Positions 1,622 to 64,000 of a DNA stretch of 64,000 nt are shown piece after piece (the stretch's first letter is position 1; every line of letters starts with the position of its first letter). Below the pieces are notes generated by a model. It did no database searches and had not been told where the DNA came from. It worked only from the letters and a program-made list of their open reading frames with translations. The translations under genes were made by a program, and so were the position numbers. The stretch lies in NCBI GenBank assembly GCA_036346225.1, contig JARFIW010001104.1:6722001-6786000 (forward strand), written 5' to 3'. The DNA comes from Platerodrilus igneus. Lineage: Eukaryota > Arthropoda > Insecta > Coleoptera > Lycidae.

Positions 1622-2403
1622 ATGGTACCTGCAAACGTTTTTAAATGCAACTCTTGCGGTGCTTCTTATACCTGGAAAAATGCTCTCAAACGGCACCAGA
1701 ACAAATGTCGTGGTGTAACATCGTCCAGGGTTAGGCTTATACATCCGTCAGCAGCAAAGTACTTAAACTGTATGTCTTGCGGAATCGGTTTTACAAGAAT
1801 GGACAACTTACTGCAACACAAGAAAAAACAGCACGATATGTCATTAAACCATAAACGTTCAGCTCCGCCAGCTGTTAAAGAGTTTTATACGAAACAACCA
1901 AGAATTATGTGTAAAGTATGCGATTTCGAAATGGAAAAGACTACCTATGTCGCACACTTGAGAAACAACAGACATAAAAATGAATCAGTTACCGCTACTA
2001 GCGACGATGGTGTACAAATGGTTAGCACAGCGTTTAACAACCGTATGGCTAGCTATCGCATAAAGAACGCTAGTGTCGAAGATGGAGTCTCCGAGTTTCT
2101 TTGGAAGCAGAAAGAGCGGTTTATTCGTTTACTTAATGAAAAATGAACACGACATACAGCAATAAAAGTCTATGCGAACTCTATGGCGTCTACACAAAAA
2201 TGGTAGAAGAGACTACCGATGTGAAATCCTTTAACACAAAAAATATGGTTATAACGTCTTCTAGTAATCTGGAAAATATGTACGAGGTCTTAAGCGAAAC
2301 CATGCGAACAAAATCAGAGGAATTTGAAACACGTGGGGACGGTTGGTCTTTGGTTAAGATGTTCCATTTAGAAATAAATATTAATAAGTATAAACCGATT
2401 TGA
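1622..2403 (+). pseudogene. C2H2 zinc-finger N-terminal module of a virus-type DNA polymerase protein
   Basis: Two overlapping frames, 1,622-2,146 (174 codons from the first ATG) and 2,143-2,403, meet at an ATGA overlap. The first has three zinc fingers: C9/C12/H25/C29, C50/C53/H66/H71 and C97/C100/H112/H118. The region after the fingers and all of the second frame resemble the segment that joins zinc fingers to a family B DNA polymerase in proteins of arthropod Polinton/adintovirus-like elements. This is recognition from memory, not a search. Here the protein stops just where the polymerase part would begin. Either this is a frameshifted, truncated pseudogene, or the element keeps the zinc-finger module as separate small genes. 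Copy B carries a remnant at 57,750-57,978. Confidence 0.7.
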
Positions 2404-2900
2404 GGAGTTGTAGGTTAAGAATAAAAAACTGCGAATATGTATTTAGAAATGTGGTTTACAAAATTAAAACTGTATTAGTAAAAATTATTATACACCGCTT
2501 TCACATGTAATTCGGGGCGATGATGACGTTAAACTCGACCTTCCTATTTACATATTAAAAACACATTACATTGGAATGTTTTACATTATTCTCATATTGT
2601 TAGATTAACGACGATATGTTTTATTGACCGAAACACGTTTCCTCTCTTTTTTAAACAGCACATTAATCTCTTTTTTGTTATAGGTATTTTTAAACACATT
2701 AATGTCTTTTTTTGTTACAGGTTACTATAACCTGCTTGGATTCGGCTACACTAAGAAGATAATGTTATACTTTGTAAATATTGTATTCAATTTGTTTATT
2801 AAACTGTAAATCGGATAAAATAAAGTATTAAACTTTTGCGTGCTTAATTTCTTTGTGTTAATACCGCTAAGTGTTTGGTTAAAGGATTTTAGATATTAAA
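2404..2900 (+). other. 3' non-coding region of copy A
   Basis: No gene. It holds AATAAA-type signals after the zinc-finger frames. Parts near 2,485-2,515, 2,540-2,590 and 2,800-2,860 match the reverse complement of 57,105-57,560, so this non-coding DNA is an inherited part of the element. Confidence 0.5.
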
Positions 2901-3930
2901 AAGGATAGATGATTAAAATCGACATTGATAAAAAAAATCTTAAAATTGGGGTAGCTCCCTGGAGGATAATGCTATCTAAAAAATTCCTAGAGATTCGAGT
3001 AGCCGAAAAAAATCTAATATTAATTGATACCAAACAAGGTACATTTATCTCGTGGGCGGAAATGTGGAGAAAGAGTTATCTCGCAGAGGGTATATGTGTA
3101 ACTTTGTAAGGGGTGGTCCGATTTTAAATCTGTTTGCAGATTCGGATTCTGCGTAAAATTCTAGACTGATTTGATGTGAGGGGGTGATCCGATTTTAAAT
3201 CTGTTTGCAGATACGGATTCTGCATAAAATTCTAGACTAATTTGATGTATTGCATGACTAAAAAATTTATGCGGACGACCATAAAATCGCTACTAGCAAA
3301 AAATCTTAAAATGAGGGTAGCTTCCTGGAGGATGATGCTATCTAAAAAATTCTTATAGATTCGGGTAGCTGAGAAAAATCTAATATTAATTGATACGAAA
3401 CAAGATAGGTTTATCTCAAAAGATGCAATGGTTAGTCGAAGAAAACTACTTGGTTCAGAATGTTGGCGGTGAAAAAATTCTTAAAATTGGGGTAGCTGTC
3501 TGGGGGGTGATGCTATCTGAAAATTTTAAAGAGATTTGGGTAGCTGAGAAAATTCTAATATTAATCGATACTTGACAATATAGGTTTATCTCGAAAGATG
3601 AAAAATGGATAGTCGAAGAAAACTATTTGATCCAGATGTGGGAGCAAATGAGGATGCTAAGATGAAAATGCAAGATATATTTATCTCGAAAGATGTTATC
3701 TCGAAAGATGAAAAATGGTTGGTCGAAGAAAACTATTTGGTCCAGATGTGTGAAGAAATGAAGATGAAAATAAAAGATATATTTATCTCGAAAGATGAAA
3801 ATGGCTAGTCGAAGAAAACTGTTTGGTCCAGATGTGTGAGGAAATGAAGATGGTAAGATGAAAATGCAACATATATTTATCTCGAAAGTTGAAAATGGCT
3901 AGTCCAGAATGAGTGTGGGAATGAGGGATT
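2900..3930 (+). repeat. Tandem-repeat array of copy A
   Basis: Diverged units share blocks such as AAAATCTTAAAATTGG (starts near 2,930, 3,299 and 3,474), GGTAGCTGAGAAAATTC and TTTATCTCGAAAGATG. An AAATCTGTTTGCAGAT block occurs at about 3,125 and 3,198. Copy B has the same array inverted (56,330-57,105) with similar alternating spacing. Short open frames occur in several units but are not convincing genes. Confidence 0.75.
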
Positions 3931-33010: not shown

Positions 33011-33102
33011 ACTGTAACAATTTTATTTTCGAATTCATAATTCGCTTCATTTAAGGTACGACAATAGTTAAACACCTTTATTAAGTAAAGTCATAATACA
33101 TT

Positions 33103-34650
33103 TGTTACGGTAAAACCTACGGGTCAGGAAGGAAATGAAGCAAAGGCAGAAAAGGAACTTTCTACCCGGGTCCCTTACCGAAACAAAACAGGATGCTACG
33201 GCTAGCCGTCGTAGATTAGGGGTGGGGAGTAGGGTCAACGTAGCCAGGTAAAAGAATACCGCTGGAATATACGTTGGATTAGTACCTCGACAGGAAGAAA
33301 AAAAAAATAGATAAACAAATGATGACAGACCATTAGTCGGTCTAATATTAGCATCAGTGAAATACCAGGACAGTAACAGTTCTAAGGACTTCTTAGGGAG
33401 GTCGTTGTTCCGGAAATGCACTCCCGTAGATACAGGCATATAAATACTTACAGGAATTGTTAGTATCCTAGGGGGCGGATACTGAACCCTCAGTAACTCT
33501 CGTCTGGAATGCACCACAGGCCAAGCTAAGTAAGGAGGGAGAAAACTAAAATAATTTCCACTGTAACAGGACTAGAGTTTTTATTTAAGCCACTTCGTTG
33601 GCGGCTAATCAATATCAGATAAGTATAAATCGGAGCTAGCAATGATATATGGTAAGTTCACATAAACGGATATAACTTAATCTACCTATGGTGGCGGTGT
33701 TTATATTACATATCTCACTATACGATAACAACCTAGCGAGCTCGTGTTCCGCAAAGCTAATGGCATTCAAGCAAATAACCAAATATTTTATCACTACGGC
33801 ACCATCCGTGCCATGCGTTTTATGCTTAATACTAGTAAGTACCAAGGTTTATGTAGACCATTGCATATAAAAGTTAAGTTTTTAAATCAACAACCAAAAC
33901 AGTAAACACTATGCATTTCGCAACACTTAGTATATATATCCTGCTAGATCACGCAGTCAATGGCATGAAAAGTATCTCCAGAGGATATAGGAGGTAAACC
34001 ATATAAAGGGTAAAAGGATACTTCGTGGAACTTACTTACGTATCATATTTAATTTGGGGAACTTAGCTCTGTAGTAAATCCAACACGAAATGTTCCTAAC
34101 TTGATGGGAGACCAATTACTTTTGTCGGCTACTCCAGAAAGTTTCCTCAACGTTCCATGTGCATCCTTAGGTGTACCTATATTTCGGAGTATGACGTTGG
34201 GAGTCGAATACCATGAGCACCATTCGCTAACAGCATTTAGGAACTATTTGAACCCAGCCCAAGGAAGCGAGCCAGCGTTCAACCAGGATGAGACCAGGAC
34301 GTAGGAAGAGGACGGAAAGGAAACAGCTACAAAATTATATCGGCATTAGCCAAAGTATAACACTAACGAATCGAGTGCAAAAATTATTCGTAACTTACCA
34401 CGAGTATAACTGCAATTGTCCGAATTTAGACTTATACTTCGTGCTGTATCCTCGAAGAAGTAGAGAATTACTTAGAGTTTGTCGGATCGCATCCCTTTAA
34501 ACAACGGGACACGCTAGAATTGAAAAACCATCACCGTAAATTAATTCCGTTCCAATGAACAGCGAAACGTCAAAATTTATTTATTTTGTCAACTTTCAAA
34601 AATTTTCAGAACCGCTATCTAGATATACAGAAGACAAGAGTAGTATAGGT
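33103..34650 (-). mobile_element. Solo gypsy LTR, left part
   Basis: A 1,654-bp LTR of the same family as the complete element, running from TGTTACGG at 33,103 to CGTAACA ending at 43,915 and flanked by CATT (33,099-33,102 and 43,916-43,919). The complete element at 34,651-43,805 sits inside it. It shows more differences from the two intact LTRs than they show from each other, so it is older. Confidence 0.9.
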
Positions 34651-36301
34651 TGTCACGGTAAAACCTACGGGTCAGGAAGGAAATGAAGCAAAGGCAGAAA
34701 AGGAACTTTCTACCCGGGTCCTTTACCGAAACAAAACAGGATGCTACGGCTAGCTGTCGTAGATTAGGGGTGGGGAGTAGGGTCAACGTAGCCAGGTAAA
34801 AGAATACCGCTGGAATAAAAGTTGGATTATTACATCGACAGGAAAAAAAAATAGATAAACAAATGATGGCAGGCCATTAGTCTGTCTAATATTAGCATCA
34901 GTGAAATACCAGGACAGTGACAGTTCTAAGGACTCCTTAGGGAGGTCGTTGTTCCGGAAATGCACTCCCGTAGATACAGGCCTATAAATACTTACAGGAA
35001 TTGTTAGTATCCTAGGGGGCGGATACTGAACACTCAGTAACTCTCGTCTTGAATGCACCACAGGCCAAGCTAAGTAAGGAGGGAGAAAACTAAAATAATT
35101 TCCACTTTAACAGGACTAGAGTTTTTATTTAAGCCACTTCGTTGACGGCTAATCAATATCAGATAAGTATAAATCGGAGCTAGCAATGATATATGGTAAG
35201 TTCACATAAACGGATATAACTTAATCTACCTATGGTGGCGGTGTTTATATTACATAACGCACTATACTATAACAACCTAGCGAGCTCGTGTTCCGCAAAG
35301 CTAATGGCATTCAAGCAAACAACCAAATATTTTATCACTACGGCACCATCCGTGCCAGGCGTTTTATGCTTAATACTAGTAAGTACCAAGGTTTATGTAG
35401 ACTATTGCATATAAAAGTTAAGGTTTTAAATCAACAACCAAAACAGTAAACACTATTCATTTCGCAACACTCAGTATATATATCCTGCTAGATCACGCAG
35501 TCAATGGCATGAAAAGTATCTCCAGAGGATATAGGAGGTAAACAATATAAAGGGTAAAAGGATACTTCGTGGAACTTACTTACGTATCATATTTAATTTG
35601 GGGAACTTAGCTCTGTAGTAAATCCAACACGAAATGTTCCGAACTTGATGGGAGACAAATTACTTTTTGTCGGCTCCTCCAGAAAGTTTCCTCAACGTTC
35701 CATGTGCATTCTTAGGTGTACCTATATTTCGGAGTATGACGTTGTGAGTCGAGTACCATGGGCACCATTCGCTAACAGCATTTAGGAACTATTTGAACCC
35801 AGCCCCAGGAAGCGAGCTAGCGTTCAACCAGGATGAGACCAGAACGTAGGAATAGGACGGAAAGGAAACAGCTACAAAATTATATCGGCATTAGCCAAAG
35901 TATAACACTAACGAATCGAGTGCAAAATTATTCGTAACTTACCACGAGTATAACTGCAATTGTCCGAATTTAGACTTATACTTCGTGCTGTATCCTCGAA
36001 GAAGTAGAGAATTACTTAGAGTTTGTCGGATCGCATCCCTTTAAACAACGGGACACGCTAGAATTGAAAAACCATCACCGTAAATTAATTCCGTTCCAAT
36101 GAACAGCAAAACGTCAAAATTTATTTATTTTGTCAACTTTCAAAAATTTTCAGAACCGCTATCTAGATATACAGAAGACAAGAGTAGTATAGGTTGCTTA
36201 GTTTAAAGGCATTATGAATTTGGAATCGGCGAAATAGAAACAACGTTATATTTAATTATATTTGCGTGGATTTAGTAACATGCCTTAAATTGAACGTAAC
36301 A
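34651..36301 (-). repeat. Gypsy 3' LTR
   Basis: Begins TGTTACG and ends CGTGACA in element orientation. Short open frames inside (for example near 34,783-35,061) are not conserved as genes. Confidence 0.95.
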
Positions 36302-36305
36302 AATT

Positions 36306-36313
36306 CCCCCCCA
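36306..36313 (-). other. Gypsy polypurine tract
   Basis: Eight G residues (minus strand) followed by AATT and the 3' LTR: the primer site for plus-strand DNA. Confidence 0.75.
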
Positions 36314-37168
36314 GCAAAATTAAAAGGTCGGGGTAGGAAAACACAAGCGGTTAGACAACCGAACTAATAACAAAACGAACGGGAAGGAAATCTCTTTCAA
36401 CAAAACAAACTATAAACGAAACGAACACCAAACATAGAGAAAAAAAAACAAAAAAAAAGAAATTCATCCGGTTCGACGGACCATAAACTAGTAACCTACA
36501 ATCAGGACTACCAGAAGAAATCGAACGGAGCATTCACTGCAGTGATAACAATGGGAGAAGAACTAAAGAAAGAAGAAAAGAATGAGAGAGATGTAGAGTG
36601 GTAATCAACGAGGAGAAGGATGGGCCGGCATCAACACTGCAAAGGTCGTCTGTAGACGAGAGTCTCTAGTAAAGAAACAGTAAAGTTTTCAAACCTCAAG
36701 AAAAGAATTGGTTTCATGCGCCCATAAACCAAAAGGAAGAACCGAAGAGAGGAAGAAAATCAACAGTAATAGCCAAAACATGCCTCAAGGATGCCAAAGA
36801 TCGACGAAAGAGCTGGGATACGAACCGATGTGCTATCAACTGTAGTAACAAAGAAGTCGTTACTAACGAACAATCAAGAAAAGAATTGCTAATAGACCCG
36901 AAAATTCGACAGTGTCGCAGTTTCCGAAGAAAAGTAGAGAGGTCTACAAAGCATACCACAGGAAGCGGATGGTATATCAAAACAAGTCAGTGCAAAGACC
37001 GACAGCAAGGAACACCAACTAATCGGATATAGAAGTGAGAAGGTGCAGTTCAGAAAGAAAAGAGAAGGTACAGAAGGGAAGAAACCGAACAAAATATAAT
37101 CACAAAATCCAAGAGCGTAATACCAGTGTAGAGCAGAGTCATCATTAGCAGTTGGGACGAGAGGGCAG
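36314..37168 (-). other. Gypsy 3' untranslated region
   Basis: Between the integrase stop and the polypurine tract. Frames here are short and unlike any envelope protein I know, with no clear signal peptide and transmembrane pair in a long frame. Confidence 0.5.
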
Positions 37169-40100
37169 CTATCTAGCTTTACGACGCCTGCGTCGCCAAA
37201 AGGAAAGTAATGCGATATCCGGAACATTAGGATCGTCCGGATGAGAAGGTTTGAGATCTTTAACGTGCCAAATGCTTTTGGCACCGGTAGGATCGGTCAG
37301 TTCGTATGTCCACGGAGAAACAACTTTACTAATAGGAAACGGACCCAGAAATTTAGGGGCAAGTTTAGCGTTGAAGTGACGTGAAGCGTCGGAAAGGGCG
37401 TAATTACGGCGCCAAACAGCATCTCCTAATTGGAATTTGACAGGGCGACGTCGAAAATTATAGCGATTATGAGTATCACGGTACGCAGCGGATAGTTTCT
37501 TTAGGACACGTGAGCGAATATCTTTAAAGTGTTCGGGATCAGGCGAAGGATGTTCTGGATCAGGAATGTACATATCATTGAATTCGGACAGTTGTCCGAA
37601 GTAATCACCGGAGAGGATGTGTTCTCTACCAAACAACGCAAAGAAAGGTGTACAGCCAATAATTTCATGTTTGGACGTGCGGACGGCACAAGCAAGTTGT
37701 GAAAGATTGACATCCCAATGACGATGGTTGTCACGAACATAGGATGCTATCATTGTTTTGATAGTACGGTTGACGCGTTCAGCAGGATTTGCTTGAGGAT
37801 GGTAACGAGCAGTGAATAGAATTTTGGAGTTATACCGGGCACATAAGGAAGTGAATTGCCGACTGCGAAACTGCGAGCCGTTATCAGTAATAAGATATTG
37901 AGGAACCCCAAAAGTAGAAAGACCTGTTCTTCAAGAAGTTTAGTAACGGCCGGTGCAGTGGCGGTGCGTAAAGTAAAGAAAAGAGGAAATTTTGTAAAGT
38001 AGTCAGCCACTACAAAAAGATAAGAACAACCTTTGGTAGAACGAGGAAGAGGACCTACCAGATCACAAGACATGACTTGCCAAGGGTAGGAGGGTTTAGC
38101 TCTAGGAGCAAAGAAACCAGGAGGAGGTAACTGTTCAACCTTATGAGCAGCACAGATCGGACAACGTCGGATGTAGCGAGCGACGTCAGCTCGGAGACAA
38201 GGCCAATGATATTTTGGAGGAGACGAGCGGAAGTTTTGGTCACTCCACAGTGACCGGAAGTAGGCGGATCGTGGTGAAGAAAAATCAGATGTCTACGCTG
38301 TTCAGAAGGTACGACGATTTTCCAATCGTCCTGAGAATCGGCAGCGATAGAAGTCTTATGACGACGAAACAGGATATCGTTCACAACGGACCAGGATGGG
38401 TAGCGTCTAGGAGATTTTGAAACTTTTTGAAGCATACCATTATACCAAGGATCGGGAGTAGGAAGAGTAACTTCAAGGGAGGAAATGGCTGAAACAGAAA
38501 CGGGAGTAAGAACGGGAACGGAACGGGAGAGGGTATCAGGAACAACATGATCTTTCCTTTTCGGTGGAAAATGGAGAAATCATATTGCTGGAGGCGAAGG
38601 GACCAGCGAGCTAGGCGACCTGAAGGACTTGTGAGTTTGTTGAGCCAGAGAAGGGAATGGTGGTCGGTAATTACTGAAAATGAATACCCTCGACGTAAGG
38701 TCGGAACTTCTCGATCGCCCACACCACTGCCAGGCACTCCTTCTCAGTAACTGAGTAGTTGCGCTCGGGCTTGGAAAGTGACCGGCTGATGTAGCTGACA
38801 ACCTTTTCGCCTTTGGGGGAAGTTTGGCTTAGGATCGCACCCAAACCGAAGTGGGAGGCATCAGTTTGGATGGTGAAGGGTAAGGTAAAGTCGGGGCAGG
38901 ATAGGATGGGAGCGGAAACTAGATGCTGTTTAAGAGAGAGGAAGGCAGATTGACAATCGGAGTCCAGATGAAAGGGACATTCTTTCGGGTTAAATTAGAA
39001 AGCGGAGAAGTAAGAGTGGCGAAATTTGGAATAAAGCGCCGGTACCAACTGGCCATGCCAATCAGTCGACGTACTTCGGAAACAGAAGAAGGAGGAGGGA
39101 TGTTAAGAATAGCAGAAACTTTTCTGGATCGACAAGGAGTCCATCTCGGTTAACAACGTAACCCAGATAACGGAGTTCAGGGAGGAAGAAATGGCATTTA
39201 TCTTGACGAAGGGAAAGGCCGGCAGAGAAGAGACGTGAAAGTACTAGGTCAAGTATGCGGATGTGTTCCTCGAAAGAGGGGTGGCTATGATGATATCGTC
39301 AAGATATGCGAAGCAGAAAGGTTCCAGGTCAGAACCGATGACCTGATCGATGAGGCGTTGGAAGGTTGCAGGAGAGTTATGGAGACCGAAAGGCATCCGA
39401 CAGAATTGGAATAAGCCACGATGAGGGACGGTAAAAGCGGTGATTGGTTTGGATTCTGGAGATAGAGGATTTGCCAGTAAGCGGAGCGGATGTCTAGTGA
39501 GGAAAGAAAACGGGCATCGCGGAGACGATCCAAGATGGTAGAAATATAAGGAAGTGGATATGCATCTTTTTGAGTGACTTGGTTGACCTTACGGAAGTCG
39601 ATACAGAACCTATAAGAATCGTCTTTCTTCTTTATGAGGACAATAGGACTAGACCAAGGACTAGTAGAAGTCTCGACGACTCCCAGACGGAGCATCTCGT
39701 CAAGCTCGGAATGAGCTATCTTAAGAAGTGGAGGAGAAAGAGGGTAATAACGTTGTTTTATAGGTTCTGCCGAAGTACGGATATGATGTTGAACTAGGGT
39801 AGTACAACCAAGACTAGTAGGCTGATTAGAAAAAGTACTAGAAATCAAAGTATCCAAACGAAGACGTTGTTCAGGTGTAAGCTCAGAGACAATATGAGCA
39901 GGGTCGGTGGTGACAGTTGCCAAGGAAGAAGGAGAAACAAAAGTCCATAGGCCGTCGCAAAATTTTGGAACACACTGCAGCGATTTCAGAAATCGATACC
40001 AAGAATGAGTGGTGTGAAACTTCAGGAATGACAAGAATATCCAGAGTAGTAATAGAATTTTGGAGGGTTATAGGAAGAGAAACGGAACCCAAGATTGTAC

Positions 40101-40417
40101 ATTTAGAATTATCAGCAAGGCTGCAGAAAGAAGAAGTGAAAGGGTTAAGAGCTATATTAAGAGAACGCAACCGGTGCCAACCGGGACCGCCAAGAATAGT
40201 GCGCGTAGCTCCTGAATCCAGAAGACCAGTAAAGGGACACCAAAATATTGACTTGTAGGTAGGGACGTTGGTCACCCCGAACATTAGCACATATGTAATT
40301 TAGTTCGAATCTGGATTGGTCATCCAGACCCCGAAAAGGAGAACCCGAGGACAGAGAAAGAACAGGGTCCTCGCCTCGGACCAAGAACCCTACCGACGGT
40401 TTAACGAATTTTCGCAT
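37169..40417 (-). pseudogene. Gypsy pol: protease, RT, RNase H, integrase
   Basis: Protease with LLDSGATRTIL (D-S-G site) near 40,210. RT with YRFCIDFRKVNQVT and LSSLDIRSAYWQI (39,590-39,470), then after a frame change the catalytic YLDD at 39,295-39,306. RNase H with [11 protein letters not shown] near 38,860 and, after a shift near 38,690, [12 protein letters not shown]. Integrase with an HHCC finger (HHDPPTSGH near 38,270), CDLVGPLP near 38,060, a damaged second-D region near 37,890, and 37,753-37,169 with the end of the core and a C-terminal GPFPISKVV...VKDLKPS part. Catalytic residues are largely present; at least five frame changes separate them. Confidence 0.88.
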
Positions 40418-40419
40418 TT

Positions 40420-41769
40420 GTTGGGACAGTTGCGACGAGTAACTCCTTACGACCGCAACCGTAACAGTGTGGTACTTGAGGACGGTTACAATTAGAGAGA
40501 TATGTCCAGCCTGATCGCAGTTGAAGCAAGTTATCAGTCTAGCAGAAGCAGGAGTAGTAGTAGGCGTAGTGACAGATAAAGGTTGGTTCTACGTGCGGAT
40601 GTTGGATGATCAGTGACAGGAGTAGACACGCGGGGTGAAGGATCTGGTTTATAAGCAAGGGCAGGTTCCAATAACTTCGACGTTTTGCTAGAAGGTGGTG
40701 GTCGATAACGTTCGGCCGAAATCTTTGTCGCTTCCAATTGCTGACCCAAGGATAAAAGTTGATCAACAGAGGTAACAGGAGTAAGGCCCAAAGAAGTCTG
40801 ATAGAAAGGAGTTAAATTGCCACGAATCAGGCTTAAACGCTTTTCTTCGGAAAGTGGTTCCGAAAGGCGAAGGAATAAATTCAACATACTAACAACATAA
40901 CCAGTAAGCGATTCTGTAGGTCCCATCGTACGTTGATAAATTTCCCTCATAAGACGATCATCATAGTCCGGTGGTAAAAATGAAGACTTTAGCATGTCGA
41001 CGATGTCTAACCATGATTTCATTTTGGTGCGGTGGACCCGATATAATAGCAAAGCCTGACCTGATAGAATTTCGGACGCCGAAATAAACAATTGCTGTGA
41101 GGACACCCCCCTAGAAGAACACAATTCGTCAGTTCGAATAAGAAAATCCATCAAGGATTCTTCACCAGAAAACTTTAACCCAAGTTTCGAAACTGCATTA
41201 CTTTTAGTCAAACCCTAGGTGACATAACCGGGACCGGTTCAGGTTCATCTTCCGACTCAGACTCGGAAGTGAGTAGAGACGGTTCATCCGGATCCGCTAT
41301 TTGAGTACAAATAAGACTGGAAGTAGCCAACGGTGTACCGGGTAAAACGACAGAGGGACGAAATTTCCTAATTTTGTCTTCGTACGCACTACGAAGATTA
41401 GTTAGGACAAGTAACAATTGGCGATGTGCTTTTGTTCATCCCTGTTGGGGACATATTCGTACAGCGACGCTCGAGGAGTAGCCAAACAGAGCTAATACGT
41501 TTAAAGACGCCTGAAGATTTATCACCGTCAAAAGTAATGAGAGAATTTTTGAGTTCTTGGATAGCCATTTCAACAATTTGATATTCAGCGGCAAAGTTCG
41601 CCTCCACCGAAATGGAAGGAAGCTTTTTTTCTTGGTCGATGTGCAATGCACTTCGAACGGATCGACGTAATTCTTCTACCTTATCTTCAGGATCAAAACC
41701 TCTAGAGGATAATTCATACTGGAGTTCCGTTTACCGTAGACGATTAACCTTTAGGCACCAATGTGCCAT
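40420..41769 (-). pseudogene. Gypsy gag
   Basis: The gag region begins at the ATG complementary to 41,767-41,769, with a stop after 12 codons and further frame changes near 41,420 and 41,210. The 41,211-40,534 frame has the Retrotrans_gag-type capsid core (WLDIVDMLKSSF, REIYQRTMGPTESLTGYV). After it comes a first zinc knuckle CFNCDQAGH and then CYGCGRK of a second, thrown out of frame near 40,500-40,430. It forms the particle shell and binds RNA. Most breaks are single-base events. Confidence 0.82.
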
Positions 41770-42135
41770 TGTAAACAAAACTACTCAAACTAACAGTATA
41801 TACAAACCCACAACAACAAAATCCAAAAACAAACAAATTACCAAGCACCAACAGAACAACCAAAATAAACCCGAATTGTATCTAAAATAAAACGATTCAA
41901 TTCAGGACAGAAACTGCAGGTAAAAAAAATCACTACGAATAACAAAACCAACGAATATAGAACTACAGACAAATAGAACAGGGCGCCAGTATTTTCAATT
42001 CTCTCTACTGAGAGCACCAAAACTATCAGGGAAAATACAAGTCTGATAATTTCACCAGGATACTATCGGAGTGGAGTATTAAGTAACAAGAATTGAGGAA
42101 CGGAGGTTAAGTAACGAGAATCGAGGGCCCCAAAT

Positions 42136-42147
42136 CGTTGGGCGCCA
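42136..42147 (-). other. Gypsy primer-binding site (tRNA-Lys)
   Basis: The minus strand reads TGGCGCCCAACG five bases after the 5' LTR. This is complementary to the last nine bases of tRNA-Lys(CTT) plus CCA. The same tRNA forms the core of the palindrome at 61,577-61,642. Confidence 0.85.
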
Positions 42148-42152
42148 AAAGA

Positions 42153-43805
42153 TGTCACGGTAAAACCTACGGGTCAGGAAGGAAATGAAGCAAAGGCAGA
42201 AAAGGAACTTTCTACCCGGGTCCTTTACCGAAACAAAACAGGATGCTACGGCTAGCTGTCGTAGATTAGGGGTGGGGAGTAGGGTCAACGTAGCCAGGTA
42301 AAAGAATACCGCTGGAATAAAAGTTGGATTATTACATCGACAGGAAAAAAAAAATAGATAAACAAATGATGGCAGGCCATTAGTCTGTCTAATATTAGCA
42401 TCAGTGAAATACCAGGACAGTGACAGTTCTAAGGACTCCTTAGGGAGGTCGTTGCTCCGGAAATGCACTCCCGTAGATACAAGCCTATAAATACTTACAG
42501 GAATTGTTAGTATCCTAGGGGGCGGATACTGAACACTCAGTAACTCTCGTCTTGAATGCACCACAGGCCAAGCTAAGTAAGGAGGGAGAAAACTAAAATA
42601 ATTTCCACTTTAACAGGACTAGAGTTTTTATTTAAGCCACTTCGTTGACGGCTAATCAATATCAGATAAGTATAAATCGGAGCTAGCAATGATATATGGT
42701 AAGTTCACATAAACGGATATAACTTAATCTACCTATGGTGGCGGTGTTTATATTACATAACGCACTATACTATAACAACCTAGCGAGCTCGTGTTCCGCA
42801 AAGCTAATGGCATTCAAGCAAACAACCAAATATTTTATCACTACGGCACCATCCGTGCCAGGCGTTTTATGCTTAATACTAGTAAGTACCAAGGTTTATG
42901 TAGACTATTGCATATAAAAGTTAAGGTTTTAAATCAACAACCAAAACAGTAAACACTATTCATTTCGCAACACTCAGTATATATATCCTGCTAGATCACG
43001 CAGTCAATGGCATGAAAAGTATCTCCAGAGGATATAGGAGGTAAACAATATAAAGGGTAAAAGGATACTTCGTGGAACTTACTTACGTATCATATTTAAT
43101 TTGGGGAACTTAGCTCTGTAGTAAATCCAACACGAAATGTTCCGAACTTGATGGGAGACAAATTACTTTTTGTCGGCTCCTCCAGAAAGTTTCCTCAACG
43201 TTCCATGTGCATTCTTAGGTGTACCTATATTTCGGAGTATGACGTTGTGAGTCGAGTACCATGGGCACCATTCGCTAACAGCATTTAGGAACTATTTGAA
43301 CCCAGCCCCAGGAAGCGAGCTAGCGTTCAACCAGGATGAGACCAGAACGTAGGAATAGGACGGAAAGGAAACAGCTACAAAATTATATCGGCATTAGCCA
43401 AAGTATAACACTAACGAATCGAGTGCAAAAATTATTCGTAACTTACCACGAGTATAACTGCAATTGTCCGAATTTAGACTTATACTTCGTGCTGTATCCT
43501 CGAAGAAGTAGAGAATTACTTAGAGTTTGTCGGATCGCATCCCTTTAAACAACGGGACACGCTAGAATTGAAAAACCATCACCCTAAATTAATTCCGTTC
43601 CAATGAACAGCAAAACGTCAAAATTTATTTATTTTGTCAACTTTCAAAAATTTTCAGAACCGCTATCTAGATATACAGAAGACAAGAGTAGTATAGGTTG
43701 CTTAGTTTAAAGGCATTATGAATTTGGAATCGGCGAAATAGAAACAACGTTATATTTAATTATATTTGCGTGGAGTTAGTAACATGCCTTAAATTGAACG
43801 TAACA
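42153..43805 (-). repeat. Gypsy 5' LTR
   Basis: Nearly identical to the 3' LTR: I count four substitutions and two homopolymer length changes. It should hold the promoter. Confidence 0.95.
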
Positions 43806-43809
43806 AGGT

Positions 43810-43915
43810 TGCCTAGTTTAAAGGCATTATGAATTTGGAATCGGCGAAATAGAAACAACGTTATATTTAATTATATTTGCGTGGATTTAGTAACATGCTT
43901 AAATTGAACGTAACA
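43810..43915 (-). mobile_element. Solo gypsy LTR, right part
   Basis: The last 106 bp of the split solo LTR, following the AGGT duplication (43,806-43,809) of the inserted element and ending in CGTAACA before CATT. Confidence 0.9.
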
Positions 43916-43919
43916 CATT

Positions 43920-45412
43920 TTACAATTAGAATATTACATTGTGACAGCATCTTGACTCGTTAGTCTAGTTGTTTTGGATGGCGGTGTATTTCACACCCAG
44001 TCGCAAGCGCGTAGAGAGGAATGACAACCCCCCCCCCTTTGGGATCCTCCCATTGTACGAGAGCACGAGATAGGCACTCGGCCATAAGTAATAGAGGCAG
44101 CAGCATGTTTAAGAGAACAATGGCCAGTGACCTGCGGGTCGGTTTGATTAAGTGAAACATTTTCTGAATAACGGTTGGTAATGTATACTCGTTATTATAG
44201 TATGTAATTTGAAAATTTGTTTAGCGCAAACCAAGATTAGACGACGAAACACTACAACACTTAGGCGATGAAAAGTTAAACAATAATAACTTAGAACTGT
44301 GAATCAACGTTAAGAAACCACTTCAATTTAACACATGCTTTTAGAGTATGGAAAGCAGATCTAATTAACAGGAGATCGTTTGTTGGTCCGAGCCAAGATA
44401 CTACTTTGTTAGGATGTAAGCAGTTAATTCCGCATGACGAAGCACATCCTATTTCAGCCTATGAAAGCAGTTTTGTTTGGTTCGTAGTAATTTTAAGAAA
44501 TTCAATTGTGTTCCACTCAGGAAACACGCTATTTTGTATTTATGAAAGCAGATGCTTAGTATTCTATTACTACCAACTTTGAAAACGAGAATATCTTTAT
44601 GAACATTTTCATTTTAAACTGAAATTAGCACATGTAACTTAACGAGAATATTTTGTATTTTAATTTTGACAATGTAATAGACCTAATCAGATCTGAATGG
44701 GTTAAAAACCATTAATGTAACAAGTTATACTTTGTTGTAAAATTCTTGATCTAGAAACAGATTGATAAACCTTATCTTAAATTTCCAAACTACTACAAGT
44801 AATTATTTAATTTTGTTGCATTCAATTTCATTTAAAGTTAAAGGAATTCTTTCTAGTAAATTATTAACCTAAGTTTGAAGTCTTTTATTTTGATCAAGTG
44901 TGATCAAACCTAGCAACCCAAAAAGGCAATAAGAGTTGAATTTTGATGCCACCCTTATGTAGAAAATATTCTTTTTATTTCTTTTAGGCATATTTGAGGG
45001 ACACAAACAGTGTTCCCATTTTCTATGTTGACTTAATTATTATTCTTTCTTACAGGAACAGCGTCTTATTCTGTTAAGACAGGTTTTTGTCACCGAAGGC
45101 GATCTTTTTTTCTTTGGGTCTCCACGTCCGCCCTTAGAAATATGCTATGCTTTTAACAGGAATCAATCTGGACTTGGTGGCGCCTATTTGTTTTAGTTTG
45201 AGTGTGACCCCCCAACAGATTTCGACTTACCCCCCCCCATTGCTCATAGCTCTACCCAAGGAATAGACCCCTAGTTACGTCGGAAGACTTCGTTTTACTG
45301 ACACCAAATGTGGGGCTGGTGTTTTAGTAGTACTAGTAAGTTTGTTTCACTAGCACACTCATGCGTGAGGCTAGCGGAGCCAATTAGAGAGAAAAAAAAC
45401 GTTACAACACAT
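43920..45412. other. No recognisable gene
   Basis: AT-rich DNA. Bases near 43,955-44,010 faintly resemble a tRNA D-arm and anticodon arm, but no T-arm follows. A run of C at about 44,029 and another at 45,230 are simple repeats. Confidence 0.5.
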
Positions 45413-46555
<1,143 letters not shown>

Positions 46556-47143
46556 AGCCAATTCCTTTAGTATGTATCACCGTTTACCAAAGTGCGATAA
46601 TAAAAATCTTCTGTTTTCTATTTTTTGGTGTGTAACCTTTTCCACAGATCCCTAGATGAGGAACCCACAAATTTGGAGTTACCATGTTTACCATTTGAAA
46701 TATCTAATACATACATAGGCAGATATTTCAGAAACCTTTATATCAGAAAAACAACACAACAGACGCACCCAATCAGCTATGGGCAATCACTCATAAAAAC
46801 TACAAATTTGACAAAAACAATGATGCAAAAATTCGACATCACATCTCTCTAAAAAACTTCACGAAATAGACCTAACAGAAGAAATGGAGAACAATCATCA
46901 CAAACTAATCGACACAAAATTATGCAACACTCAAAACCTCAAATCAAAACTACTAACTACTATTCAAAAGACTATAACCACCCACACTCACGCTCTCAAC
47001 TCAAAACATATATATCCGAATAAACGTCATTCAGACTCCGTGTATTTATTGGAGTATATAGTACATACATAGAAGATAGACAACCTGGTAGGGGTATTGA
47101 CGGCGTGAACTAAGGCAGACCTCGGCATATTATTGAAAGCACG
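46556..47143. other. Unassigned, possible LINE remnant
   Basis: Short plus-strand frames (46,625-46,852 and 46,884-47,072) have a Thr/Asn/Lys-rich look like the decayed R1-like LINE, but I could not place them. No other feature. Confidence 0.3.
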
Positions 47144-54550: not shown

Positions 54551-56329
54551 AACATTATTTTGAAATGTTAACGTATAAACAGATTAATTAATTAAATTTC
54601 ATTAACTTGTGTAACTTATAGGCAGAATTCCATGATAAATTACCGTTATATTTCAGTAAGCATTCTTTATAATAAAAACCTCAGGTTTAGAAATAGTTTT
54701 ACTCTTAAATATTATAAATTCCAGCGGCTACCATAATAATTTAATGGCAAATCCAATACAATACCCTTTTAAAACTTATGTCGGTTATACATTGACGAAT
54801 CTGATAAATTTAAATAGAATATTACCTTTTAACGTAAACAAAAAAAGCAATTTTCAGTTGTAAAACTTAATTTTCTTAATATTTCGGTGATTGACAAGGG
54901 TTACAGAAAACGAAACATTACAAATAGCCGAACTATTTTCCAATTTGATTTGTTCAAAGATTGCAAGTAATTTTAAGTAGTCTGGAGACAACCATTGTAT
55001 TAAAATCCATTTCGGTTACCCGGTCTTTTGTCAATGGTAGACAACTGTCGCCAATAGATACGGTCAACAATTTCAGTACACAAAATTCCAAGAATGTACT
55101 TCATATTTAAACCATTAAAAAAATAATTGCTATCCGTGGCACTCACCTTGAAAGTGGTTGGATTTGGTTTCTGAAATCTTGTTTTTGGGAGGTTCTGTTA
55201 ATAGTCATTGGATAACAGAAATATGACGTAAAATAATGGTTTAGAGTCGAATTAATATATAACTTAAGACTTTAGTTAAAAGAGAGAGATTACAATGGGG
55301 TTTTCAGTTTTAAAAACGTAGAAAGAAACGTAGCCAGAGAAGTTCGCTGGTAGCGTTCTCCGGCATAGCAGATATGATACCGAACTTAGTATCACGATAG
55401 TAAAAGTGGAAATGAGTAATTAACCCATCCAGTTCGTGAGGGTTTATGCCCGTGTGTTCGCGGATTTATAAGTGATATTAAAGTATATAATAAAAAGCTT
55501 ATGTGCGGGTGGCGCATCAGTTAAGCTCAACAAGATCCTGCCGGGTTCGTGTGTCATTGAATTATTTGAATAGTTGCGAAGAACAAGAACAACAAACGAG
55601 ATTCTCTTCCCCAATTTAAGAGCTGTTCTGGATTGAAAAGCAAGCAATCAAACAATTGATGATTTTTAGTAACTAAGTTTTTATAGTTAAGCTAGCATGA
55701 CGAATTTTTAGTTAATTTATTTGTTAGGACGTTTTGGCCATAAACCGTAGGTTTAACTTAGTGTAAAATTTATAAGATACGCTTTCTTCCATATAGAATA
55801 TTTGGGAATTACTTATGTACATAAAATTATCAGAATTCCATATCAACCATTCAATCAAATGTCTAAATTAAAATCAATGAATTTCCTAACGTAAGAGGTT
55901 CACGTTTATTGCTCTGTTGATTAAATAGTTTTTGGTTGCCGTTGATTAAGACAATAGTTTTCTATTTTTTTTTATTATGAAGGTTGCATAAGTAGTCAAA
56001 AAGGTAAGAATTGATTAAAAGAAACAATTGTCCTCCTTAGGATGAAAAGTCTCTTAAGGTTTTGCATGAACATTTGGACATTCTCGACTTGTCTGGCGCC
56101 TTTGGTAATTGTCATTAAACCACAATATTTACGAAAGGTAAGTGCAAAATTTTTTTGGTTGTATAATATATATTAATTTAGCCCTTTCTGCAAAATTCTA
56201 ATTCTCTACACGATCCACGACCTTCCGCTAGCTAGTGCCGGTGAACCCCTTTAATTTTTGTTTTACAGGCCGCCCCCTTTGTTTAATTTAAAAAATATAT
56301 ATATACTTAGTAGTACATTATGGGCGTAA
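54551..56329. other. No recognisable feature
   Basis: 1.8 kb of AT-rich DNA without a convincing gene, RNA or linked repeat. Confidence 0.5.
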
Positions 56330-57105
56330 TCACCCCCACATTTCCACCAGCATCCACATTTCCACCCACATCTGGACCAAATTTACATGTAAATTCCCAT
56401 AAGGAGAAAATGAGGAGATTCATCTCCACATTTCCACAAGCATCCACATTTCCACACACGAGATAAACCTATTTTTAAGATTTTTTTACCGCTAACATTC
56501 TGGACCAAATAGTTTTCTTCGACTAACCATTTTTCATCTTTTGAGATAAACCTATCTTGTTTGGTATCAATTAATATTAGAATTTTCTCAGCTACCCGAA
56601 TTTCTAACAATTTTTTAGATATCATCACCCCCAAGGGGGCTACCCTAATTTTAAGATTTCTTACCTGTAGCGACTTTTGAGCGTTCTTATAAATTTTTTT
56701 TAGTCATGCAATACATTAAATTAGCTTAGAATTTTATGCACATCCCGAATCTGCAAACAGATTTAAAATAGGACCACGCCCTGCAAAGTTACACATATAC
56801 CCTCTGCGAGATAAATTTTTCTCCACACTTCCACCCACGAGATAAACCTATCTTGTTTGGTATCAGTTAATATTAGAATTTTCTCAGCTACCCGAATCTT
56901 TAGGAATTTTTCAGATTGTACCATCCCCAAGAGAGCTACGCCAATTTTAAGATTTTTTACCTGTAGCGGCTTTTGAGCGTTCTTATAAATTTTTTTTAGT
57001 CATGCGATACATCTTGTTAGTCTAGAATTTTACGCAGAATTCGAATCTGTAAACAGATTTAATATCCGACCACGCCCTGCAAAGTTATACTTTAAGCTCT
57101 CAAAC
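56330..57105 (-). repeat. Tandem-repeat array of copy B
   Basis: Reverse complement of the 2,900-3,930 array. The AAATCTTAAAAT block recurs near 56,957, 56,665 and 56,485 (spacing about 292 and 180, against 369 and 175 in copy A). AAATCTGTTTGCAGAT and a diverged copy occur inverted near 56,750 and 57,050. Confidence 0.75.
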
Positions 57106-57749
57106 CTCTAAAATTTTTGCTCATTTATGACATATGCTTTAACCAATACAAAGAAATAAGCACGCAAAAGTTTAATAATTTATTTTATCCAATTTACAGT
57201 TTAATAATCTAATCATTCCAATGTAATGGGTTTTAAATATGTGAATGGGAAGGTCGACTTTTGGTGTAATGATCGCGTGGTTAATAATTAAGAAAGCGCA
57301 TTTTGCTGGTATGAAATCTATGGAATTTCTCCTGTAATGAAAAGAAGAATGCATTCGTAATTGAAAATGCGTGTCACTTACCTTCAGCCAAATTAAGTAT
57401 TAATATAGCAAAATATTTAAATTCAATATTTTCGAAACTTCCAATGTAGTATTAATTTTATAGCATTAATTTGTAATTATTTGTAATCCAGCAAGTATTC
57501 TAGATTCTTAACGAACATGTGAATCACATGTGAAAGCTGTATATAATTTCTTCTCCAAACAAATGCGGTTATTACAATAGGAAAGTACCCTAAATGCAAG
57601 TAAATTAATAGCAATTTAATAGTGTTTACTGACCTACCTTAATTGTTTGTACAAGAAAACACAATAAAATATATACAAATATAGTAACTACCTTATATAT
57701 TTATGCCCCATGTGTAGGTTGCTGTACTATTAGAACCAGGGTATGCAGA
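57106..57749 (-). other. Non-coding part of copy B
   Basis: Segments match 2,485-2,870 of copy A inverted, including the GTCGACCTTCCCATTCACATAT block. Other parts are not alignable by eye. Confidence 0.5.
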
Positions 57750-57978
57750 CTTTAACACCTCCATGTCGCACGCTTTACACAGATGTTGGTTGTTTCGTAC
57801 AAGACCCTTTAACAGCTGGCGGAGCTGAACGTTTACTGCTTAATGACATACCGTGCTGTTTTTCCTTGTGTCGCTGTGAGCTATTCTTGTAAAAGCGATA
57901 CTGCAAGACCCAGAGTTTAAGTACTTTGCTGCCGACGGATGTATAAGCTTAACCGTGGACGATGTTACACCACGACAT
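57750..57978 (-). pseudogene. Zinc-finger gene remnant of copy B
   Basis: Aligns inverted with about 1,703-1,930 of copy A, covering the end of finger 1 and all of finger 2 plus the linker, and is full of small changes. The 5' part of the gene and its upstream region (1,103-1,702 in A) are deleted; the join lies near 57,978. Confidence 0.75.
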
Positions 57979-58305
57979 TAAATGGCAGGCTTGAATATTT
58001 TTTTTGGAAACAATCGAAGATTGCCGAAGACACTCGAAGAGTGCACAAACGCGGTCACTAAACCACAATTAATAATCGCCTTTATAGGTTTAACATTTCT
58101 ACCATTACCCAGTGACTTTAATTTCTTATTGGAGAGAATCCTTATTATCCCACGCACTGCTGCGTGGTTGCATACCTACCCCTTTTGGAGATATATGCTC
58201 GTTATAGGTTGTAAGACCCTTGGTTTTACTTAACTACACTTCGTGAGATCCCTTTAATCTTTTTTAATCGTGTCCTTCTCGGTTGCAATACAGTAGGACT
58301 TAGCC
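57979..58305 (-). repeat. Outer repeat of virus-like element, copy B
   Basis: 57,979-58,060 matches 1,018-1,102 inverted; 58,056-58,305 matches 63,751-64,000 inverted. It is thus shared by three copies in this window. Confidence 0.8.
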
Positions 58306-59638: not shown

Positions 59639-59661
59639 ATGTTATCAATACATGTATGTAT

Positions 59662-61576
59662 TGTAACGTATTTTTTTTCTTGTTGCACCAAGCCTAATAA
59701 ATTAATAATAAAACAGATAAATTTTAAAGCATTTAATTCGTAAATATTCAGCCAATAAAAAGTAAAGTATAATATTCCCAATAACACATAGAATCTAGGA
59801 GATTTATATTCTGTGGCTTGTTGCCAAGCGTAGTCCAGTTAATTATCAGCACTTTTGTTTCAAACGTCGAAGAGTGAAGTCGCTTTTTGTAGACTAGAGA
59901 TAAAAGTCAAGATGTCCCGACTAAAACACGAGGCGTCTAATAGAGTCAAGAAGAAGAACTTGAGTTGAGAACATGGAACAATAATATACATCATTTAAGA
60001 CAGTTGGTATAGATTAATATTATAAATTAAACTAATATATTTCACTTTAGTGCAATATCTAATGGACATATCTACAACAACAATTTTCAATGTTAAATTA
60101 TAATAAATTTTCGTCGCAGTAATTTAAAGCAGGCAGTTATGGTTTCGTTCTATCTATTTAATACGCCGCATAGAAATGGTTTATTATACAAAGAATCTTG
60201 GTACTTCAAACTTACAGATGATTAATACGCTGGAAAAATACAACAGCTGACGTCATGATTTTGCACCTGCAATTTATTTGGATACACGTGAGTGTTTGAA
60301 ACTTTCCGTAACTTTGAAAGTATTATAAATTATTATGAGATTTCCTACGTTGATTATTAGAATAACACAAATTTAAAGTAGTTTTTTAAAGTTAATAACA
60401 CACCGAATAAATATTTAGTTTGTCAGTTATTTGTACACGCATTCAATGTGTGTCAAGATATTTAGAATGACAACTTGTGTCAGATAAAAAAATAGTATAG
60501 ATTCTGTTTCCTAATCTAAACGCCAGACGCAGTCTTGATTTAATTTTCACATTTTGCTTAAAAATAATTAAGGTCATGTAAAAGCTTTTTATTGGTGCTG
60601 ATATTCGTGTATATTTTTTTGTGTAGACAACAGTTAAATTTGAATAGTTGCATTTTATGATCGTTATTTTTCTGATGATCAATCTTTGTTGTAAATGGTC
60701 AAGGAAGCGCTTCAATGATTATAGTAAAAATAAAATCTTGTGATATGAACAAATAAATTATGATATGTTTGCTTAAACTAAAATTTTTTAGAAATGATTA
60801 ATTTATAAATATTTATTTAGAAGGTTAAACTTCACTAAAATTCTTTTTATAAAAAATTTATGACAAGATAGTAAGCATATATATTGCAGTCACATGTATA
60901 TAATCAGATTTCTATATATAAATAGAATTCATTTTGTTTCCTTTGAAAAAGTTTTATTATACAACATTTAAATTAGGAAAGAAAACTAGAGCAAATCCTC
61001 CTTAAGTAAAAAGACAGAGTAATGAAAATGAATCCCTTTAGTATTTCACAGATGTTTAAATTCATTTATTCTATTTTGGCATATGCTTTTGAAGACACAA
61101 ATAGTGTCCATGTGGTGTTTTGTTTGTTCACAGGTAAAGCTGAGACAACTGTTTGACATCTGGTGGTTGAGGTTTTGGTAAGTGTGTGATAAAGAGTGAA
61201 ATTCAAATTTTATGGCTATGATAGTGGTGTTAAGATAAGGTTTCCGCATTCCCTTATACAAACACAGTTAAATTTTGTTGGCACTTGTTTAAAAATACGG
61301 TGGCGCCTATTAAAAATATTTTTGGTCGATTATCCACCCATGACCCATGCTCATGATCTACCCAGAGCTAACACTCTACTAGCCGTTTAACCCCTAAGAG
61401 TTTTCTTTGTCTAAAGCCGTTTTCCATCTGACATTACCCTGGGCTTGGAGTATAAAGAAAATCTCGACCTAGTGATATCAGATTAAAAATAGAGTTTTAG
61501 TATATAGCTGATAGTCACGAGGATAAAGGGTAATAAACTTACAAAAAGTTTTTAATTACCCCCGTTTTTTATTACA
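59662..61576 (+). repeat. Palindrome left arm
   Basis: 1,915 bp, TGTAACGTATTTT to TTTTATTACA. Reads as an LTR in this orientation: AATAAA-like signals near the start and a CA end. No long frame. Confidence 0.85.
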
Positions 61577-61642
61577 CTCAGTCGGTAGAGCATGAGACTC
61601 TTAATCTCAGGGTCGTGGGTTCGAGCCCCACGTTGGGCGCCA
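61577..61642 (+). tRNA. tRNA-Lys(CTT) fragment, nucleotides 11-73 plus CCA
   Basis: Bases 61,577-61,639 match tRNA-Lys(CTT) from nucleotide 11 to the discriminator base 73: anticodon stem TGAGA/TCTCA with loop CTCTTAA, T-arm with GGTTCGAGCC and the 3' acceptor strand GTTGGGC-G. CCA follows at 61,640-61,642, which eukaryotic tRNA genes do not encode. The first ten nucleotides, including the 5' acceptor strand and part of the A box, are absent, so it cannot make a tRNA. Read on the minus strand it starts TGGCGCCCAACG, exactly like the primer-binding site of the gypsy element at 42,136. Confidence 0.9.
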
Positions 61643-61649
61643 GTGTAAG

Positions 61650-63516
61650 TGTAATAAAAACGGGGGTGATTAAAACTTTGTAAGTATTACCCTTTATCCT
61701 CGTGACTATCAGCTATACTAAAACTCTTTTAATCTGATATCACTAGGTCGAGATTTTCTTTATACCAAGCCCAGGGTAATGTCAGATGGAAAACGGCTTA
61801 GACAAAGAAAACCTTAGGGTTAAACGGCTAGTAGAGTGTTAGTCTGGGTGATCATGAGCATGGGTCATGGTGGATAATCGACCAAAATATTTTTAATGGC
61901 GCCACCGATTTTTTAATACAAGTGCAACAAAATTTAACTGTGTTTGTTAAGGAATGGGAAACCTTATCTTAACCCACTATCATAGCCAAAATTTGAATTT
62001 CATTCTTTATCACCACTTACCAAAACCTCAACCACCAGATGTCAAACAGTTGTCTCAGCTTACCTGTAAACAAACAAAACACCACATGGACACTATTTGT
62101 GTCTTCAAAAGCATATGCCAAAATAGAATAAATGAATTTAAACATCTGTGAATACTAAAGGGATTCATTTTCATTACTCTGTCTTTTCTTAAGGAGGATT
62201 TGCTCTAGTTTTCTTTCCTAATTTAAATGTTGTATAATAAAACTTTTCAAAGGAAACAAAATGAATTCTTTTATATATAGAAATCTGATTATATACATGT
62301 GACTGCAATATATATGCTTACATCTTGTCATAAATTTTTATAAAAGAATTTTAGTGAAGTTTAACCTTCTAAATAAATATTTATAAATTAATCATTTCTA
62401 AAAATTTTAGTTTAACAAAATATCTAATTTATTTGTTCATATCACAGATTTTATTTTTACTATAACATTGAAGCGTCTTGACCATTTACAACAAAGATTG
62501 ATCATCAGAAAAATAACGATCATAAAATGCAACTGTATTCAAATTTAACTGTTGTCTACACAAAAAATATACACGAATATCAGCACCAATAAAAAGCTTT
62601 TACATGACCTTAATTATTTTTAAGCAAAATGTGAAAATTAAATCAAGACTGCGTCTGGCGTTTAGATTAGGAAACAGAATCTATACTATTTTTTTATCTG
62701 ACACAAGTTGTCATTCTAAATATCTTGACACATTGAATGCGTGTACAAATAACTGACAAACTAAATATTTATTCGGTGTGTTATTAACTTTAAAAAACTA
62801 CTTTAAATTTGTGTTATTCTAATAATCAACGTAGGAAATCTCATAATAATTTATAATACTTTCAAAGTTACGGAAAGTTTCAAACACTCACGTGTATCCA
62901 AATAAATTGCAGGTGCAAAATCATGACGTCAGCTGTTGTATTTTCCAGCGTATTAATCATCTGTAAGTTTGAAGTACCAAAATTCTTTGTATAATAAACC
63001 ATTTCTATGCGGCGTATTAAATAGATAGAACGAAACCATAACTGCCTGCTTTAAATTACTGCGACGAAAATTTATTATAATTTAACATTGAAAATTGTTG
63101 TTGTAGATATGTCCATTAGATATTGCACTAAAGTGAAATATATTAGTTTAATTTATAATATTAATCTATACCAACTGTCTTAAATGATGTATATTATTGT
63201 TCCATGTTCTCAACTCAAGTTCTTCTTCTTGACTCTATTAGACGCCTCGTGTTTTAGTCGGGACATCTTGACTTTTATCTCTAGTCTACAAAAAGCGACT
63301 TCACTCTTCGACGTTTGAAACAAAAGTGCTGATAATTAACTGGACTACGCTTGGCAACAAGCCACAGAATATAAATCTCCTAGATTCTATGTGTTATTGG
63401 GAATATTATACTTTACTTTTTATTGGCTGAATATTTACGAATTAAATGCTTTAAAATTTATCTGTTTTATTATTAATTTATTAGGCTTGGTGCAACAAGA
63501 AAAAAAATACGTTACA
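61650..63516 (-). repeat. Palindrome right arm
   Basis: 1,867 bp, inverted copy of the left arm. It is shorter mainly because of many one-base gaps within 61,650-62,560; beyond that the arms are nearly identical. Confidence 0.85.
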
Positions 63517-63520
63517 GTAT

Positions 63521-63750: not shown

Positions 63751-64000
63751 AGGCTAAGTCCTACTGTATTGCAACCGAGAAGGACACGATTAAAAAAGAT
63801 TAAAGGGATCTCACGAAGTGTAGTTAAGTAAAACCGAGGGTCTTACAACCTATAACGAGCATATATCTCCAAAAGGGGTAAGTATGCAACCACGCAGCAG
63901 TGCGTGGGAGAATAAGGATTTTCTCCAATAAGAAATTAAAGTCATTGGGTAATGGTAGAAATGTTAAACCTATAAAGGCGATTATTAATTGTGGTTTAGT
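63751..64000 (+). repeat. Outer repeat of virus-like element, copy C
   Basis: Reverse complement of 58,056-58,305 with few changes, running off the right edge in the direction in which copy A leads to the zinc-finger gene. Confidence 0.85.

Follow-up and report, generated by a model that had tools for sequence, protein, structure and literature searches.

We examined a 64,000-nucleotide (nt) stretch of the Platerodrilus igneus genome (hereafter the window; C1032:6722001-6786000 in the 2.71-Gb assembly) and found at positions 59662-63516 a palindrome that consists of two inverted long terminal repeats (LTRs) and, between them, a copy of transfer RNA (tRNA)-Lys(CUU). The palindrome is probably an integrated by-product of tRNA-Lys-primed reverse transcription of the Ty3/gypsy type, with read-through of the primer in this event. 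Its parts are as follows, with U3, R and U5 standing for the unique 3', repeated and unique 5' regions of an LTR:

59658-59661, no strand: left target-site duplication (TSD) GTAT, read from the sequence; its length is that of ordinary family copies
59662-61578, plus strand: left arm, LTR (U3-R-U5) in sense orientation, ending ATTACACT without the final TACA
61577-61642, plus strand: tRNA-Lys(CUU) nt 11-73 plus CCA; CT at 61577-61578 is common to the left arm
61643, minus strand: one base that separates the LTR end from the primer site, the same in ordinary copies with an intact site (TTACA-C-TGG)
61644-63516, minus strand: right arm, complete inverted LTR (TGTAACG...TTACA), with probable base-call errors in its inner half
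63517-63520, no strand: right TSD GTAT, read from the sequence

The arms, each about 1.9 kb long, lie inverted to one another with the outer ends TGTAACG and CGTTACA, and only the tRNA core and a single base lie between them. Along the minus strand, the right arm ends ...TTACACTTACA, followed by C and then by TGGCGCCCAACG..., and on the other side the ATTACACT of the left arm joins the tRNA copy through the shared CT. The core was identical to nt 11-76 of tRNA-Lys(CUU), CCA included, at 66 out of 66 nt. Rfam independently called a tRNA at 61576-61631 (37.9 bits); it agrees on the identity, and the agreement begins at position 11. The tRNA gene finder reported no gene within the 64-kb window, the palindrome core being truncated; the core is masked in the assembly copy. 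A preceding sequence-only reading of this DNA had described the same arms, outer ends, flanking GTAT, core, CT overlap and single base, all of which the sequence and the Rfam match bear out; it had also put the ordinary primer match at 12-18 nt, a figure to be corrected to 19 nt for this family where the site is intact.

The palindrome does not have the layout of a complete LTR retrotransposon: the LTRs are not direct repeats and there is no internal region between them. The tRNA stretch sits outside the LTR, at the position of the primer-binding site (PBS), and read as minus-strand DNA it is the primer-site strand of an LTR lengthened to 66 nt; it exceeds the normal site, includes CCA and is attached to the U5 end. 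Both outer ends of the palindrome are U3 ends, and the duplication beside them has the family's own length of 4 bp.

The two arms differ at 86 alignment columns, and 79 of these lie beyond position 1000 counted from the U3 end. At the 86 columns the majority base of 29 family copies (described below) was present in the left arm at 75 and in the right arm at 7, and the right arm had no base at 50. The left arm departs from the majority base by 36 substitutions, 5 of them singletons, and the right arm carries the left-arm base at 29 of these 36 positions (the other 7 are gapped or different); because those 29 non-majority bases are common to both arms, the two carry one mix of family alleles and derive from one parental LTR. 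Shared alleles demonstrate one parental sequence, not one molecule. In nanopore reads of inverted duplicates, accuracy and bases are lost past the junction (PMC7229812; this and the other sources are cited from excerpts), and the right-arm differences are probably sequencing errors provoked by a real palindrome. The inverted arms described at the outset are confirmed, with the correction that they are not equally clean, the inner half of the right one being error-like.

Source family of the arms

We searched the genome with the left arm, scored the best 40 of 2570 candidates and sampled 29 copies outside the window. The query gave at least 41 matches, including 6 pairs in the same orientation whose starts lie 4.5-8.3 kb from each other, and among the matches listed the window palindrome itself was the single inverted pair. 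In all 29 sampled copies the arm sequence is an LTR. A primer site or a variant of it follows the arm at 14 of the 29 loci: 3 of the 14 have TTACA-C-TGGCGCCCAACGTGGGGCT, a 19-nt tRNA-Lys complement, and 11 have a changed first half, CTTGCGCTCGC. In these 11 copies (L002, L005, L006, L011, L013, L014, L022, L023, L024, L025 and L030) CTTGCGCTCGCAACGTGGGG stands where the match to the 3' end of tRNA-Lys is expected, and one variant-site copy is very young (C89 pair L024/L027, 0.05% LTR difference). The polypurine tract (PPT)-like GGGAAGAGGCTG precedes 11 of the remaining 15 loci (in L015 with one change), and the 4 sampled loci with neither primer site nor PPT-like tract look like solo LTRs. The TSD was 4 bp long in all four informative LTR pairs (AGAT, GTAT, AACT and GCAC; a fifth pair sits in an AT repeat) and in all four solo-LTR candidates (ACCT, ATAT, ACAT and CTCT).

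The open reading frames (ORFs) in the internal region of the C828 copy, scanned apart, gave protease, RVT_1, RT_RNaseH, H2C2 and rve matches, in the Ty3/gypsy order of protease, reverse transcriptase, RNase H and integrase (PR-RT-RNaseH-INT), and 4 of the 7 ORFs scanned from two family copies gave no match. The RNase H-integrase piece has insect gypsy-like relatives, the best named one being from Tribolium (54%). The LTRs within five pairs differ by 0.05-0.6%, so the family is young. Judged by these sequences, the arms belong as LTRs to a young family of the Ty3/gypsy type that has a primer site for tRNA-Lys. The sequence-only reading had advised a search of the same genome for direct-repeat pairs of the arm, and the 6 pairs, the primer site and the Ty3/gypsy-type pol answer to it; the outcome that it had named as fatal, arms turning out to be the terminal inverted repeats (TIRs) of a DNA transposon, did not occur, as the arms are found as LTRs elsewhere. 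A DNA transposon with long TIRs was rejected on the same ground and on the lack of a transposase between the arms.

Other tRNA copies at LTR ends

A search with the central 661 bases of the palindrome, in which the best 40 of 2587 candidates were scored, recovered C872:3213294-3213958, the sole scored candidate that matches these bases in full length on both strands. This locus (L052) is a second palindrome: LTR...ATGTTACA-C is followed by the tRNA complement from nt 76 to nt 22 (55 nt) and then by the inverted LTR end AGTGTAACAT. Its arms differ from the left arm of the window by 6.5 and 7.1% (substitutions) and from each other by 1.9% over the aligning part. At 201 alignment columns both arms depart alike from the family majority, and lone departures number 47 in arm A and 168 in arm B; 103 of the latter fall in its outermost 200 bases, which differ so strongly that we take them for bad base calls. 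As the C872 palindrome has another tRNA end (nt 22), another join and another LTR subfamily than that of the window, we take it as an independent event, by comparison of the two sequences.

We also looked for pairs of U5 ends that point towards each other across 55-85 nt. This pattern occurred at 19 places, each on both strands, versus 25 in the reversed control, and by eye only the window palindrome among the 19 looks LTR-related. The search was bound to one type of U5 end, and C872 escaped it.

With the centre of C872 as query (best 40 of 2997 candidates scored), at least nine further LTR ends were found to carry long tRNA complements of 48-66 nt. Six copies (C1658, C565, C1010, C519, C1206 and C1298) run from tRNA nt 76 to nt 11 and then into GTTTGCTTTG; they continue with GTTTGC past nt 11, at the same boundary as in the window palindrome, and each has at least one private change from the tRNA, C1206 with indels. 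In C780 and C941 the tRNA copy stops at nt 29 and continues into different sequence, which in C780 consists of the family leader repeats with a match to nt 20-11 further on. Locus L058 (C1111:572850-573400) has an LTR end, 56 nt of tRNA complement to nt 21 and then a sense internal LTR piece, an aberrant head-to-tail product.

Pattern searches gave a broader count. The pattern of tRNA nt 44-76 with CCA occurred at 326 places with at most 3 mismatches (73 exact; 0 in the reversed control), among which there may be ordinary tRNA genes, since three mismatches can span the entire CCA. Joined to the LTR end GTGTAA, the tRNA pattern occurred at 61 places with at most 3 mismatches, 35 with at most 1 and 16 exact (again 0 in the reversed control), and the loosest of the 61 may belong to other families. 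Two exact matches of the tRNA-extended LTR-end pattern, C1120:918751 and C1120:923512, lie 4.7 kb apart in opposite orientation and, from the pattern positions alone, would turn the U3 ends of their LTRs towards each other and leave the tRNA copies on the outer sides. Three matches of this pattern lie in the same orientation within 2.2 kb on C1397 (3646928, 3648127 and 3649106).

The 14 sampled 5' leaders of the family all hold ACCGACTGAG, the complement of tRNA nt 20-11 (13 exactly and L007 with one change), for which the chance expectation of a given 10-mer in such a leader is about 0.0002. The box lies 97-176 nt downstream of the primer site, in two series of 19-nt steps, and GTTTGCTTTG comes directly after it; L003 (3563-3572) is an example of the 10-nt match past a variable number of 19-bp repeats. 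By its sequence the box is a candidate landing site, or else a candidate part of a primer site that is split. As the leader box has GTTTGCTTTG after it, the continuous 66-nt copies look like an ordinary leader in which the repeats are replaced by the missing part of the tRNA. The landing of read-through strong-stop DNA on the leader box could give rise to such copies, or they could be the older state, with the repeats inserted later. Two of the six were placed by their LTRs, one with L021 (support 0.94) and one with L029 (0.97), and the LTRs of these two show 56 differences in 1894 positions. That the two fall into separate parts of the LTR tree speaks for repeated gain; the LTRs are mosaic, however, and two of six copies were compared.

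Origin of the palindrome

In HIV-1, plus-strand strong-stop DNA normally halts at tRNA m1A58; when the tRNA is unmodified the copy reaches its 5' end, and when the m1A58 enzyme is mutated plus strands pass A58 (PMC13191261). For the palindrome we propose a comparable course, in which plus-strand strong-stop DNA (U3-R-U5) would have continued past its usual A58 stop and along the primer as far as nt 11, so that its over-extended 3' end could no longer pair fully with the ordinary 19-nt site. The 3' end ...CCGACTGAG would instead have taken an LTR strand as template through a homology of roughly 2 nt close to the U5 end (AG to CT), the template being a strong-stop LTR strand, either its own (fold-back) or that of a second molecule from identical RNA, and the LTR would have been copied backwards as far as the U3 terminus. 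Since the copy stops exactly at this terminus, the template would be plus-sense strong-stop DNA; copying of genomic RNA would be expected to pass the PPT. Fold-back and a switch between two molecules predict an identical strand. From two strands of this kind, or by a reciprocal switch, a linear duplex would form that ends in U3 on either side; integrase could then bring these U3 ends into synapsis and insert the duplex with the family's 4-bp duplication. The sequence-only reading had likewise proposed primer read-through, tail-to-tail joining and integration by U3 ends; the LTR source, the U3 ends and the TSD length have held, and the steps themselves are put forward here conditionally.

This origin is favoured by the other LTR ends in which tRNA copies to nt 29, 21 and 11 are joined to other sequences. 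The ends at nt 21-22 and 11 adjoin tRNA positions 20 and 10, which we take to be modified (D20 and m2G10); the end at nt 29 fits the modified-base idea poorly, and the join homologies are only 1-2 nt. When the strong-stop end was folded as DNA, no strong structure resulted (z -1.27). Several observations weigh against the proposed origin. The six copies with a continuous 66-nt match share the end at nt 11, so the core might come from a parent of this type; among the 29 sampled LTRs, of which the nearest is 2.0% away, none was identified as the parent copy; the nt-29 ends of C780 and C941 may be one old shared event and not two; and the flanks of C872, AGGG on the left and AATC on the right, next to the apparently bad base calls, form no duplication. 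The sequence-only reading had also suggested a search for further palindromes with a tRNA core, and C872 is one, with no 4-bp duplication readable at its flanks.

The shared boundary of the six copies leads to the rival in which the core was copied from a parent that already bore the continuous 66-nt match, with a template switch at the boundary onto the LTR and then integration. We consider this unlikely: the palindrome core has no change from the tRNA as opposed to at least one in every one of the six copies, the palindrome LTR is 3.1% and 2.6% away from the two of six that were compared versus 2.0% from its nearest sampled relatives, and the nt-22 end of C872 is matched by none of the nine other copies (the nearest, C1111, ends at nt 21). 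Rearrangement after integration, in which a solo LTR or an element was inverted and duplicated by replication template switching or double-strand-break repair, is supported by none of our observations, and has in its favour only that inverted duplications of this type occur in genomes generally. A DNA rearrangement would not be expected to break off the second U3 end precisely where the LTR terminates, with a 4-bp duplication next to it, or to put a CCA-bearing tRNA copy at the position of the PBS next to the LTR, and we hold this course to be very improbable.

An assembly or sequencing artefact, with a folded read built into the contig, would agree with the error-rich right arm and with the failure of nanopore reads past the junction of inverted duplicates; the error pattern is also that expected from a real palindrome. 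Were the structure a folded read, its flanks would be mirror images and no 66-nt tRNA stretch would have been added, whereas the left and right flanks are unlike and a TSD is present; on these grounds we rejected an artefact as very improbable. Chance is untenable for 66 of 66 tRNA bases between two LTR ends.

More tentatively than primer read-through itself, the leader box raises the possibility that the family has a second, tRNA-templated plus-strand transfer, in which read-through DNA lands on the box and a failed landing leads to U3/U3 palindromes. If so, the genome would record stops of reverse transcriptase on natural tRNA-Lys at nt 58, 29, 21-22 and 11.

Insertion site and known systems

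The palindrome is inserted inside another element with inverted repeats, and the window holds two parts of this host:

56308-58305, plus strand: left arm of the host inverted-repeat element, with Polinton-like ends; the palindrome lies inside the element
63752-64000 and on to 65749 past the window, minus strand: right arm of the same host element

The host element (56308-65749) has TIRs of 1998 bp with 98.5% identity, AGTAGTAC ends and ATACTT on both sides as a 6-bp duplication. Polinton/Maverick elements are recognised by a 6-bp TSD, AG...CT ends, long TIRs and marker genes; the host appears Polinton-like by its ends and duplication only, and the one interior ORF scanned gave no family match. 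The host inverted repeats and the palindrome have centres some 560 bases apart, so a single inversion does not explain both structures. Elsewhere in the window, sequence related to the host element is present at 1014-3636. A repeat some 1.5 kb long occurs three times in 33102-43903 (at 33102, 34650 and 42152), with a reverse transcriptase-bearing minus-strand ORF at 39285-40034 among them, as an LTR-like pair plus a third, tandem copy, and a long simple-repeat array with open frames in several phases spans 45263-46580.

The sequence-only reading had known of no family of this design, and in agreement with it we saw no described integrated LTR-tRNA-LTR palindrome among the papers listed from the open-access literature that we searched (subscription journals lying mostly outside it). 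The palindrome implies that two U3 ends are a possible substrate in vivo for the integrase of an LTR element, and that a strong-stop fragment without an internal region can become a stable insertion; the mechanism would add a new source to those of long palindromes in genomes, a kind of sequence that is hard to read.

Compared with Ty3/gypsy LTR retrotransposons, whose LTRs form the arms and with which the family shares a PBS, a PPT-like tract, a 4-bp TSD and PR-RT-RNaseH-INT, the palindrome has inverted LTRs, no internal region and 66 nt of tRNA in place of 19. DIRS elements are not known to make a TSD. They are alike in having inverted terminal repeats (PMC5633606), but they use a tyrosine recombinase and carry genes between the repeats, whereas the parent family here has an rve integrase and TSDs. 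Helenus and Ajax, terminal-repeat retrotransposons in miniature, are LTR elements with a tRNA or 5S stretch, and animal Helenus have 4-bp TSDs (PMC10886601); their small-RNA sequence lies inside direct LTRs and is taken as a promoter, unlike the primer copy between inverted LTRs seen here. The bipartite primer sites of Ty1 and Ty3 likewise include a second genomic tRNA match apart from the first, in the D arm in Ty3 (PMC5371799); in our family the tRNA and the place are others (ACCGACTGAG lying 97-176 nt downstream) and the role is a candidate one. The closest counterpart of the proposed read-through is the over-extended strong-stop DNA that HIV-1 makes on tRNA-Lys3 without m1A58, in which the primer is also copied beyond A58, and a primer over-extension sequence in the HIV-1 genome can rescue short read-through (PMC13191261). 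That product is an intermediate, seen in vitro and in mutant-TRMT6 cells (PMC13191261), in contrast to the integrated product with inverted LTRs described here. Read-through of a tRNA primer, a laboratory observation in HIV-1 in the excerpt cited (PMC13191261), thus appears to be recorded in genomic DNA, both in its end positions and in the fate of its product.

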